Part shown: positions 39,206 to 42,886 of the stretch, piece after piece
Position numbering within the stretch: the stretch's first letter is position 1
Layout of the letters: every line of letters starts with the position of its first letter
Origin: Burkholderiaceae bacterium
GTDB taxonomy: Bacteria; Pseudomonadota; Gammaproteobacteria; Burkholderiales; Burkholderiaceae
Length of the DNA stretch: 64,000 nt
Assembly: GCA_947448415.1 (NCBI GenBank)
Contig: CANFMT010000013.1
Location: forward strand, 1-64,000
Direction: 5' to 3'
Program-made: the position numbers and the translations under genes
Notes under the pieces: generated by a model
What the model saw: the letters and a program-made list of their open reading frames with translations, nothing else
Databases searched by the model: none
Told to the model about the DNA's origin: nothing

Positions 39206-39724
39206 ATGAATATGACCCACTATATGCAGTTGCTAGCTGATAATCAGCCTTGGAATCTGCTGATCTTTATGGCTATACCGGTGGTCTTGGCTGAGACCTT
39301 GGCAATTACTGAGCTCTATATTTTGTTTACTAGAAGGTTTCATGGGTTCATGTGGGGGCTCAATCGCTTTGCAGGTACTGCTGTTGGTGTGTATTTCATT
39401 GGCATTATTGCCTATCTCATGACTAGCGCAGTGATTCCGATTACTAAAGCCGGTGAATGGCGAACTGTTATTGATATAGTCGCGGTTGGCTCTTACTTGA
39501 TTGGTGGCTTACCTCTTATTTGGATAGCTTTACAAGAGTTTGGCTTAGTGAATAAAAATTTAAACCAAGAAAATAAACTCAAGATCCATGCAATTTGCGT
39601 TGCGCTCTTTTTAGTCATTGGGCATATTGCTATGATTAGCGGCATGCTTGATCCAGGCTTACTTGGATACCAAGGGGCTGCGCACTCCATGGAAACGCCT
39701 ATACCTACTTCACATGCACATTAA
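39206..39724 (+). CDS. Small 4-TM membrane protein with His-containing C-terminus (possibly DUF6803-type)
   Basis: 172-aa hydrophobic ORF ending ...METPIPTSHAH; family label from memory. Confidence 0.6.
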   Translation: MNMTHYMQLLADNQPWNLLIFMAIPVVLAETLAITELYILFTRRFHGFMWGLNRFAGTAVGVYFIGIIAYLMTSAVIPITKAGEWRTVIDIVAVGSYLIGGLPLIWIALQEFGLVNKNLNQENKLKIHAICVALFLVIGHIAMISGMLDPGLLGYQGAAHSMETPIPTSHAH

Positions 39725-39751: not shown

Positions 39752-40186
39752 TTACTTATAGCATTTAGCTACAGCTGGCGTCTTTAACTTTGCAAAGGCA
39801 TGTATTAAAAAAATACTAAAAAATAGTAGGCCCACTATCCAGTGAACAGTGATGACATCCTCCCGAATTTGCTCAGGCCCGTAATATAGTAAGGCGCCAG
39901 ATATAAGAAGTACAGACATGAAGGTGAGTTGAGTAAAGCCGCTGATCCATTTGCGCGCAGATTTGTAACCCGCCTTGATATGAAAGGGTAAAACCGAACC
40001 TAGCGCCAACGTGGCAAGCATTGCTGCTACGCCATGAGCAACCAAAATATTGTGCGTACCAAGGATCAATCGTTGGATGTGAAACTCATGTCCAAGTAGG
40101 TAAGCAAAGCCAGTGAGAGAGCACGTAAGCATCCCCCAAATAACAAACGACTTTTGCCACCCAGGCATCTTTCCTAATCGTCTCAT
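39752..40186 (-). CDS. Membrane cytochrome b-like protein
   Basis: Four hydrophobic segments with intramembrane His (THNILVAHG, LPFHIKAG, VHWIVGLLFFSIFLIHAF); 4-nt overlap with apbE. Confidence 0.55.
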   Translation of the reverse strand: MRRLGKMPGWQKSFVIWGMLTCSLTGFAYLLGHEFHIQRLILGTHNILVAHGVAAMLATLALGSVLPFHIKAGYKSARKWISGFTQLTFMSVLLISGALLYYGPEQIREDVITVHWIVGLLFFSIFLIHAFAKLKTPAVAKCYK

Positions 40187-41001
40187 GCTGCAATCCTGAT
40201 TGCTTTAGCGCCAAATCGCTTAAAGCAAGGATGATGGTCGTTGTTGCTCAAGGCTAGCACTTTCGTGAGCGCATCTGCATAAACGCATTCCTTGGCTAGG
40301 ATTGAATAAGAGCCATTAACTTCTGAGTGCACTTCGGACTCCTTATTCGCCAAAGGATTAATGAGGTAACTAGATTGTTTATCGCGCTTGGCAAAGTAAA
40401 GACTGCTGGTTGCAATCGCACCATTTTGCAAAGATCCAATTTCAAGAATTTGCTCTGGAGATTCAGGATTGCGAATTTGAATCGGTCTAGAGGTATTTCC
40501 AAAAACCCTTAAATCTCCGCCAGCGTTTACTACTCCTGAGTTAATCCCTTCAGATATTAAAATTTTTACCGCCATATCTACTGCAAAGCCCTTGGCGATA
40601 CCACCAAGGTCTAAACATACTGGGCGAGATGACTTGACCAGATCAGGTGCCAAGAATTGAATATCTTCAATGCCCCCTAGGTCATGATTAGAAAAATTGA
40701 TATGTCGCGGTAATAAACCTGCTGCGACTAAGCGGTGACCAATGCCGCAATTAAATAGACCGTCTGACTCACTATGAATTTCTTTGGCAACCTTGATCAC
40801 TTGCGCAGTCCATGCATGAATTTTAACAGCCTGTTTATGGGCGTATTGATTAATTTGACTAAGTTCACTTTTACAGTCATGAAAGCCCATTAAGTCATGA
40901 ACTTCCTGAATGGCTGAAAATGCACTTTCTATCGCCGCTTGCTTATCCTCATCGATGGCAATTTCAACGAAAGTTCCAAGGATTGGTTTGCAACGAATCA
41001 T
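40183..41001 (-). CDS. apbE: FAD:protein FMN transferase
   Basis: MGFHDCKSELSQIN, VCLDLGGIAKGFAVDMAVKIL, NSGVVNAGGDLRVFG. Confidence 0.92.
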   Translation of the reverse strand: MIRCKPILGTFVEIAIDEDKQAAIESAFSAIQEVHDLMGFHDCKSELSQINQYAHKQAVKIHAWTAQVIKVAKEIHSESDGLFNCGIGHRLVAAGLLPRHINFSNHDLGGIEDIQFLAPDLVKSSRPVCLDLGGIAKGFAVDMAVKILISEGINSGVVNAGGDLRVFGNTSRPIQIRNPESPEQILEIGSLQNGAIATSSLYFAKRDKQSSYLINPLANKESEVHSEVNGSYSILAKECVYADALTKVLALSNNDHHPCFKRFGAKAIRIAA

Positions 41002-41003
41002 GC

Positions 41004-41561
41004 TTATTTGCTAACCATAGGTTTGGGGCTCGAATTCTTAAGTGCTAAGTCATAAAGAGCGGTAACTCGTTTCACCCCATCCGTTATATGTTTACAAGAG
41101 AGGGTAGCCCCTCCAATATTTTGGATATCTTGATTTAATTTAATGGGGTCGTTAACGTTTTTACTCACAAATTGTTTGCGCCACTGGGGTTCCGCAACCT
41201 CATAGCCATAAGATTCAACATACTCTAGGATTTCAATACCCAAAATGCTGCCACTTGGGCTAAGAGCTACAGCATAGGTAATCATTTCATGCTTGCCAAC
41301 GACTTCATCGACAACTAACCAGCTTCCATCGGCAGACTTCCAAATGCGTTCACCTTGAAAGGGGTGTCGAATACTTGAAGCTATTCGCAATCTATCTTGT
41401 AAGTCTTCCGTAATGATGATGGGATTCTTGACAAGGACCTTATTGGGCAAGAGAATTTTCTGTGCTTGTTCTATTGATACATAAATCTTTGCTTGAGCAA
41501 TGATTGGAGCTCCGATCATTGCTATACCAAGTATTAAGTAGGGATTAGGTTTCCAGTTCAT
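41004..41561 (-). CDS. FMN-binding domain protein, secreted
   Basis: Signal peptide; NIGGATLSCKHITDGVKRV matches the ApbE flavinylation motif region. Confidence 0.82.
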   Translation of the reverse strand: MNWKPNPYLILGIAMIGAPIIAQAKIYVSIEQAQKILLPNKVLVKNPIIITEDLQDRLRIASSIRHPFQGERIWKSADGSWLVVDEVVGKHEMITYAVALSPSGSILGIEILEYVESYGYEVAEPQWRKQFVSKNVNDPIKLNQDIQNIGGATLSCKHITDGVKRVTALYDLALKNSSPKPMVSK

Positions 41562-41573
41562 ATCTGCTCTAGA

Positions 41574-42488
41574 TCAATTCAATGCAAAACCAACTTTGAC
41601 AATAAATTCATTTACTGAGTGGCTATCCCACACACGGGCATTCGAGCATTCTGCTTCGCCTCCACCCATGCAAGTGCCACCAGCAAGTTGATAACGCCAT
41701 GCTCCGGTGACCCACCAGTCTTTGGCGGCATAGTGGAGATTAGGGCCTACAAAAGTAGCGCGTTGTACTTGGTTTCTGAGATTAAGTTCTGAGTAATCGT
41801 TATGAAACCGAGCCTCTACACCAGCAGACCATTTAGGAGCAAAGCGATAGCTGGCGCCAACCAAGAAGTCGAGCATTGATTCTGGAACATTGCCATTTTC
41901 AATAAATTTCAGTCGCTCATTTGCTACTACTACGTTGCCTGCCAACACCAAACGATCATCAATGAAGTTTGATTGAAGCAGTAATCTTGCTTCAATCTCA
42001 TCTTTATTACGGCCCCAGGTAGGCTCTAAATAAAGTCCTATGCCAACAGGAGAGGTAACGGGATTCGTTACCCGATAGATCGCCTCAAGAGAGCCTCCCT
42101 CGATGCCACTTTTTCTATACGGAGTGGATGGGTCATGTGAAGACGGGACACCATATCCGCCTGTACATGTGGGTGAATCACCACATGCTTCTGGGTTGGT
42201 GTAGTTTTGATCGGCATTGGTGTAGTAAGAGTTGATATAGCCAGCTACTTGTAAATCATTGGTCAGGCCATATTCAAGCTCTGTTCTGGCTGTCCATGCG
42301 TCGTAAGTTCCAGCAGCTTGTTGTTTATTCAGTTGTAAACGCTGCTCAAACTCTAGTTTTCCTTTGGGCTGTAAATCTAAGGTGTAAATCCAACCAAAGA
42401 CACCTTCGCCAGCAAATGAAAATGAGCAATGGATAGCAGATGCAATGAAAAGGCTAAAAGCAATAAGTCTTTTTATGGAGAGTTTCAT
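41574..42488 (-). CDS. Outer-membrane beta-barrel-like protein (DUF6662-like)
   Basis: Signal peptide; alternating amphipathic strands; C-terminal FIVKVGFALN. Confidence 0.6.
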   Translation of the reverse strand: MKLSIKRLIAFSLFIASAIHCSFSFAGEGVFGWIYTLDLQPKGKLEFEQRLQLNKQQAAGTYDAWTARTELEYGLTNDLQVAGYINSYYTNADQNYTNPEACGDSPTCTGGYGVPSSHDPSTPYRKSGIEGGSLEAIYRVTNPVTSPVGIGLYLEPTWGRNKDEIEARLLLQSNFIDDRLVLAGNVVVANERLKFIENGNVPESMLDFLVGASYRFAPKWSAGVEARFHNDYSELNLRNQVQRATFVGPNLHYAAKDWWVTGAWRYQLAGGTCMGGGEAECSNARVWDSHSVNEFIVKVGFALN

Positions 42489-42520
42489 ATTTTTAAGGGG
42501 GTGGTTAGTAATGTTTGTAA

Positions 42521-42539
42521 ATGAGAATGGTTCTCAATA
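42521..42539. promoter_or_regulatory. Fur-box-like palindrome 1
   Basis: aTGAGAATGGTTCTCAata: TGAGAA-TGG-TTCTCA, 33 nt upstream of the CDS starting at 42488(-). Confidence 0.75.
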
Positions 42540-42550
42540 TAGCATATCAA

Positions 42551-42569
42551 ATAAGAATGATTCTCATTT
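42551..42569. promoter_or_regulatory. Fur-box-like palindrome 2
   Basis: ATAAGAATGATTCTCATTT, tandem with box 1. Confidence 0.78.
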
Positions 42570-42643: not shown

Positions 42644-42886
42644 ATGAATGCAGAAGCGCTTGAGAAACTCGTTTTGATGAAGATGCCCTTTGGGAAATAC
42701 GCAGGACGTGCGCTTGCAGACTTGCCAGGAAATTATTTGGCGTGGTTTGCTAGAGAGGGATTTCCTAAAAGCGAATTGGGTCAGCTACTGGAGTTGATGC
42801 ACACGCTTGACCATAATGGATTGCGTGGACTATTAGCACCTATACAAAGGGCGCATGGCTTGCAAGCTAAGTCAAAATTACTTTGA
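42644..42886 (+). CDS. DUF3820 family protein
   Basis: KMPFGKYAGRALADLPGNYLAWFAREGFPKSELGQLLELMHTLDHNGL. Confidence 0.85.
   Translation: MNAEALEKLVLMKMPFGKYAGRALADLPGNYLAWFAREGFPKSELGQLLELMHTLDHNGLRGLLAPIQRAHGLQAKSKLL

Follow-up and report, generated by a model that had tools for sequence, protein, structure and literature searches.

Fur-regulated clusters of PepSY, DUF2271, DUF4198 and ApbE genes have been described in Shewanella and in Caulobacter (CC_3059-3063) and proposed to serve iron reduction and assimilation (PMC8238504, PMC3751524), and the Caulobacter ApbE operon is known to be Fur-regulated and induced (PMC3751524). A second relevant group is formed by DUF4405 proteins, reported in Proteobacteria and Firmicutes, which bind heme b and cluster with apbE (PMC11334425/PMC10979944). 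For the ApbE reaction itself, the catalytic set of the Vibrio cholerae enzyme is Ser241, His257 and Asp285, with His257 as the general base, and the canonical site of flavinylation is D-x-x-[S/T]-G-A-[S/T] (PMC12052999). On the side of iron, only ferrous uptake is known in Polynucleobacter asymbioticus, whose feoAB genes are induced under presumed iron limitation (PMC6629928). This raises the question of the route by which so abundant a freshwater genus gains access to the Fe(III) of oxic lakes.

Here we describe a minus-strand operon at 39752-42488 of the window (the whole 64 kb stretch of DNA that was analysed, from a freshwater Polynucleobacter), which combines an outer-membrane barrel, an exported flavoprotein, an ApbE-family protein and a membrane cytochrome behind a pair of Fur boxes. 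The kind of system is already known, and a description of this particular gene set was not found in the open-access literature; the same literature yielded no paper on DUF6662, the family of the barrel, and no Polynucleobacter paper mentioning ApbE. If the operon is the conserved, Fur-controlled reductase that we argue for below, it would directly answer the question of Fe(III) use in Polynucleobacter and would give DUF6662 its first role.

A four-gene operon behind paired Fur boxes

The operon consists of four tightly packed open reading frames, all on the minus strand: a DUF6662-family outer-membrane beta-barrel protein with a Sec-type N-terminus (304 aa, 41574-42488), an exported FMN_bind protein (185 aa, 41004-41561), an ApbE-family FAD:protein FMN transferase with no signal peptide (272 aa, 40183-41001) and a DUF4405-like cytochrome b with four transmembrane segments (144 aa, 39752-40186). 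Successive frames are separated by 12 bp, by 2 bp and then by a 4-base overlap, and their co-transcription is therefore very likely. The original prediction had read the locus as an outer-membrane-like protein, an FMN-binding protein, ApbE and a cytochrome b-like protein; all four frames are confirmed, with Pfam matches to DUF6662 (PF20367, 48.5 bits against a cut-off of 27, in the C-terminal part only), FMN_bind (PF04205, 38.9 bits against 22) and ApbE (PF02424, 130.5 bits against 25.6). The arrangement is deeply conserved, the quartet being found together in 110 fetched loci. A degraded version exists in a 1.55 Mb genome (G017, locus L021), where the barrel is truncated, the frames of ApbE and the cytochrome are split and the Fur boxes are missing; this genome keeps FeoB and has no TonB receptor. 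On the plus strand of the window, the gene for a conserved DUF6803 membrane protein (39206-39724) runs convergently towards the operon's end, and no functional link between the two was found.

Two tandem Fur-like palindromes had been predicted upstream of the operon, and both are present, at 42552-42566 (distal box, TAAGAATGATTCTCA) and 42522-42536 (proximal box, TGAGAATGGTTCTCA), 30 bp apart and some 34-78 bp ahead of the operon's first ATG, each agreeing with the 7-1-7 consensus at 14 of 15 positions. Their occurrence is beyond chance: with the 7-1-7 palindrome TGAKAATNATTMTCA (TGAGAAT form) as the Fur model and at most one mismatch, there are 2 matches in 64 kb where 0.05 are expected, and none of 100 shuffles reaches 2. 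Across the 2.09 Mb genome, GAATGRTTCTCA is found solely at the two box sites. A looser 14-mer scan gave a weak excess, and the strict E. coli consensus GATAATGATAATCATTATC, also tried, has no match in the window, the TGAGAAT form of the 7-1-7 palindrome being the right model.

The boxes are conserved along with the genes. The outer-membrane protein led to 79 related operons, mostly from Polynucleobacter, of which 78 are preceded by a box and 68 by a pair. Paired boxes stand 27, 28 or 30 bp apart (29 bp twice), and the distance between the start codon and the nearest box is 24-100 bp. Counting sites that agree at 13 or more of 15 positions, we find 144 in 15,484 upstream positions and 8 in 897,900 positions elsewhere in these loci, an enrichment of about 1000-fold among loci that are related and whose counts are not independent. 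The boxes persist in operons with differing flanking genes; in the copy from Azonexaceae (L201) no Fur box could be recognised. The genome encodes a single Fur family gene and carries a box of the same type about 43 bp before feoA-feoB (both genes confirmed by Pfam). With conserved boxes, one Fur gene and a box shared with feoAB, the predicted Fur control is well supported by sequence.

Other features of the Fur-box landscape deserve mention. A HiPIP gene carries a perfect Fur box in the scan of the same genome, and a further site of Fur-box type, TGAGAATCGTTCTCA, extends into the longest frame of an OprB-family porin at its 5' end (L036, G000:C9:47093-47107). Within the window, a gene for a small QSregVF_b/DUF3820 protein (42644-42886, plus strand) diverges from the box-bearing intergenic region, and several relatives have it in the same place. 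Two Polynucleobacter strains have second, divergent copies of the operon (L183, L184), with a ferritin-like gene lying opposite across the Fur-box region.

Anatomy of the encoded proteins

The barrel protein has four conserved cysteines (102, 108, 273 and 281), placed in two long loops. Its AlphaFold model contains about 13 strands, and a Foldseek search with this model matched FapF, a COG4313 channel and the NanC porin; because model confidence is only moderate (mean pLDDT 64.6), we take these matches to mean no more than a small, channel-like beta-barrel. Five loci (L103, L104, L111, L112 and L113) have another outer-membrane protein beside FMN_bind, about 410-440 aa long and in some cases resembling Porin_O_P, which accompanies or replaces the DUF6662 barrel; the barrel slot therefore seems exchangeable.

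The FMN_bind protein starts with a hydrophobic N-terminus of the Sec-export type and has a distant profile match to RnfG/NqrC. The predicted GGATLS motif is present as described, within D-I-Q-N-I-G-G-A-T-L-S-C-K-H; Thr153 is invariant, and GA[TS] is found in 127 of 129 homologues. The surrounding residues do not conform to the canonical flavinylation site, the window sequence D-I-Q-N-I-G-G-A-T having Gln at -6 and Gly at -3. This departure is a family trait: nearly all members share D-[I/V]-x-N-I-[S/G/A/T]-G-A-T, with Asp at -8 rather than -6, and position -3 is Gly in most Polynucleobacter.

The membrane protein falls below the DUF4405 threshold (PF14358, 18.9 bits against a cut-off of 26.7), and 9 of 21 relatives show a weak match to the same family (best E 2.6e-4). 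Its four transmembrane helices are confidently modelled (pLDDT 89.1), and His51, His69, His115 and His129 are invariant in the 21-member alignment, some members of which are just 20-30% identical. The histidines form two pairs, separated by 18 residues in helix 2 (45-76) and by 14 in the last helix (105-134), which we take to be the pattern expected of two stacked hemes b; the protein is thus presumed to carry two. Foldseek gave no significant match, the best being the di-heme subunit FdnI (E 0.31), with cytochrome b561 also weak, so the di-heme assignment rests on the histidine pattern.

ApbE is the anomalous member of the operon. Its frame is only 275 codons from stop to stop for an ORF of 272 aa, and a conventional signal peptide on the predicted protein is therefore excluded. 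Relatives are alike in this respect: 105 of 123 ApbE homologues have at most 20 open-frame residues ahead of the domain, and none of the 123 in the fetched loci has a hydrophobic stretch upstream of it. The catalytic set is also incomplete, with Ser199 and Asp243 kept and Tyr212 at the position of the general base, which is His in 48 of 108 homologues. Nor did the rest of the genome (G000) yield a further, exported ApbE, an absence that weighs less for this 85% complete assembly, although finished relatives show the same. Every sampled Polynucleobacter genome that bears the operon has as many ApbE genes as operon copies; the split ApbE match of G017 is the degraded operon, and G006, a genome without the operon, has an unrelated ApbE. 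Export of ApbE as a fusion with FMN_bind, through read-through or frameshifting, was set aside, the geometry of the gene junction varying among relatives.

The expectation that ApbE covalently attaches FMN to its neighbour consequently stands only in part: the family assignment holds, while direct carry-over from characterised enzymes fails. Judged from its sequence, the predicted protein is not a standard exported flavin transferase, and with no export signal, a replaced histidine and a target motif without Asp at -6, covalent flavinylation of the FMN_bind protein is uncertain. Either flavinylation comes first and export second, or the protein acquires its FMN by other than the usual means. 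The former is possible because a seven-residue tag can be flavinylated, replacement of the conserved Asp in the motif has a minor effect and a His257Gly variant of ApbE retains some activity (PMC12052999), so that an unfolded FMN_bind precursor might be modified in the cytoplasm. We tentatively put forward a reductase built on this order of events, possible rather than probable in our estimation, in which a cytoplasmic ApbE with an altered active site would load FMN, from cytoplasmic FAD, onto the unfolded precursor before Sec export; it would need no periplasmic FAD supply and would work with a minimal four-helix di-heme cytochrome and a dedicated outer-membrane channel. The operon thereby raises a pointed and testable question: with an ApbE that has no export signal, and no exported one found elsewhere in the genome, in which compartment does the enzyme do its work?

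Association with iron genes and alternative explanations

The co-occurrence analysis that the original prediction had proposed shows that FMN_bind tracks FeoB. The FMN_bind gene is present in about three quarters (112) of 150 sampled Polynucleobacter genomes; 84 genomes have both genes, 28 only FMN_bind, 5 only FeoB and 33 neither (Fisher p=1.5e-11). A Pagel-type test on a 100-genome rpoB tree favours the dependent over the independent model (LR 26.5, 4 df, p=2.5e-5), which, coming from one gene tree and a simple model, we read as good support, though not as final. Among more distant homologous loci, the quartet lies beside FeoB and two ferritins in L201; ferritin is a neighbour in L114, L116 and L118, a divergent ferritin-like gene in L183 and L184, and imelysin with a di-haem oxidoreductase in L108, while CCP/MauG genes adjoin the homologues in L111 and L112. 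In L113, genes for FTR1, a cupredoxin, a ferritin-like protein and a porin adjoin the FMN_bind protein alone rather than the quartet, FTR1 being read from another frame, as longest-ORF annotation gives spurious frames in these high-GC neighbours. Co-occurrence with FeoB and the iron-gene neighbours argue well, at the level of sequence, for the iron-acquisition role originally predicted.

We propose that the operon probably encodes a Fur-repressed electron path from the inner membrane to the periplasm that acts as a ferric (or ferric-chelate) reductase and supplies Fe(II) to FeoAB. At low iron, Fur would leave the boxes; the four-helix b cytochrome would draw electrons from quinol (the probable donor) or from another donor on the cytoplasmic side and send them across its two hemes to the FMN_bind protein in the periplasm, whose FMN the signal-less ApbE would have loaded in the cytoplasm ahead of Sec export of the precursor. 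The FMN_bind protein would then reduce Fe(III), or an Fe(III) chelate, for which the DUF6662 barrel would be the entry channel, and the resulting Fe(II) would enter through FeoB. The step from cytochrome b to periplasmic flavoprotein is plausible from the anatomy of the proteins and from the published DUF4405 and PepSY precedents. Counting against this reductase are the 28 of 112 FMN_bind-positive genomes without FeoB, the 5 FeoB-positive genomes without FMN_bind, two loci (L029, L030) that keep the first three genes and lack the cytochrome, the box-less copy L201, the departures of ApbE and of the target motif from the canonical pattern, and the fact that in the window the operon has no iron transporter as a direct neighbour.

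Other arrangements of the same parts have to be considered. The operon may, under Fur control, release iron reductively from a ferric chelate or siderophore that TonB-dependent receptors import into the periplasm, a role like that of FoxB and PepSY proteins, with the barrel serving something else. TonB receptors are frequent in PepSY-type flavinylation clusters (PMC8238504), there are 3 TonB Plug matches in the genome of the window and 3-6 in most relatives, and the genome with the broken operon (G017) also lacks a TonB receptor. The operon, however, supplies a small barrel of its own, it has no TonB receptor beside it in the window, none was seen in the Polynucleobacter loci examined, and the receptors, near-universal in the genus, do not track operon presence; we consider this route unlikely. 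Alternatively, the flavoprotein might spare iron rather than handle it, replacing a c-type cytochrome at low iron as periplasmic carrier for a respiratory or repair reaction. Replacement of iron by flavin, as of ferredoxin by flavodoxin, is an established logic that has been suggested for flavinylation (PMC8238504), the Fur box of the HiPIP gene indicates that Fur may also govern further redox proteins of the periplasm, and the CCP/MauG genes of L111 and L112 would suit such a function. Yet a path running through a presumed di-heme cytochrome would spare little iron, and the neighbouring genes, like the co-occurrence pattern, speak for transport and storage of iron, which makes a sparing carrier quite unlikely.

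A different doubt concerns the boxes, which could be genuine and serve mainly the divergent DUF3820/QSregVF_b gene at 42644, leaving the redox operon outside iron control. They do occupy a divergent intergenic region, about 78-122 bp from the start of the plus-strand gene, but where the upstream neighbours differ (L187, L190, L197, L200) they stay with the DUF6662 operon, 24-100 bp from its ATG, and we regard this assignment as highly improbable.

Relation to described systems

The Stenotrophomonas ferric-citrate/Feo system was considered as a direct precedent and rejected, its fciTABC operon having no flavin or cytochrome parts (PMC9047314). The FMN_bind clusters associated with P19 and FTR1 (PMC8238504) resemble the L113 homologue, which sits with FTR1, cupredoxin and ferritin-like genes, whereas the operon in the window has its own cytochrome and neither FTR1 nor P19. 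With RnfG and NqrC, the substrates of exported ApbE, the FMN_bind protein shares its family by profile and the acceptor Thr of GAT, but it is a small secreted protein rather than an Rnf or Nqr subunit, its Asp stands at -8 instead of -6 and its partner ApbE is not exported.

The two closest comparisons are with the DUF4405 and PepSY systems. Like the DUF4405-ApbE cytochromes, the operon has a b-type cytochrome with four conserved histidines and an apbE gene in the same cluster; described DUF4405 proteins, by contrast, have six transmembrane segments and are often linked to flavodoxin, whereas this one has four and a sub-threshold Pfam match, and the operon adds an FMN_bind partner, the DUF6662 barrel and Fur boxes. 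What it has in common with the PepSY/DUF2271 clusters is Fur or iron control, a membrane cytochrome, ApbE, an exported protein as putative target of flavinylation and a proposed use in iron reduction and assimilation. It falls outside that group, since neither PepSY nor DUF2271 gives a Pfam match in the operon: FMN_bind stands in place of DUF2271 and a four-helix DUF4405-like cytochrome in place of PepSY, DUF4198 is missing, ApbE has no signal peptide, and the DUF6662 barrel is added.
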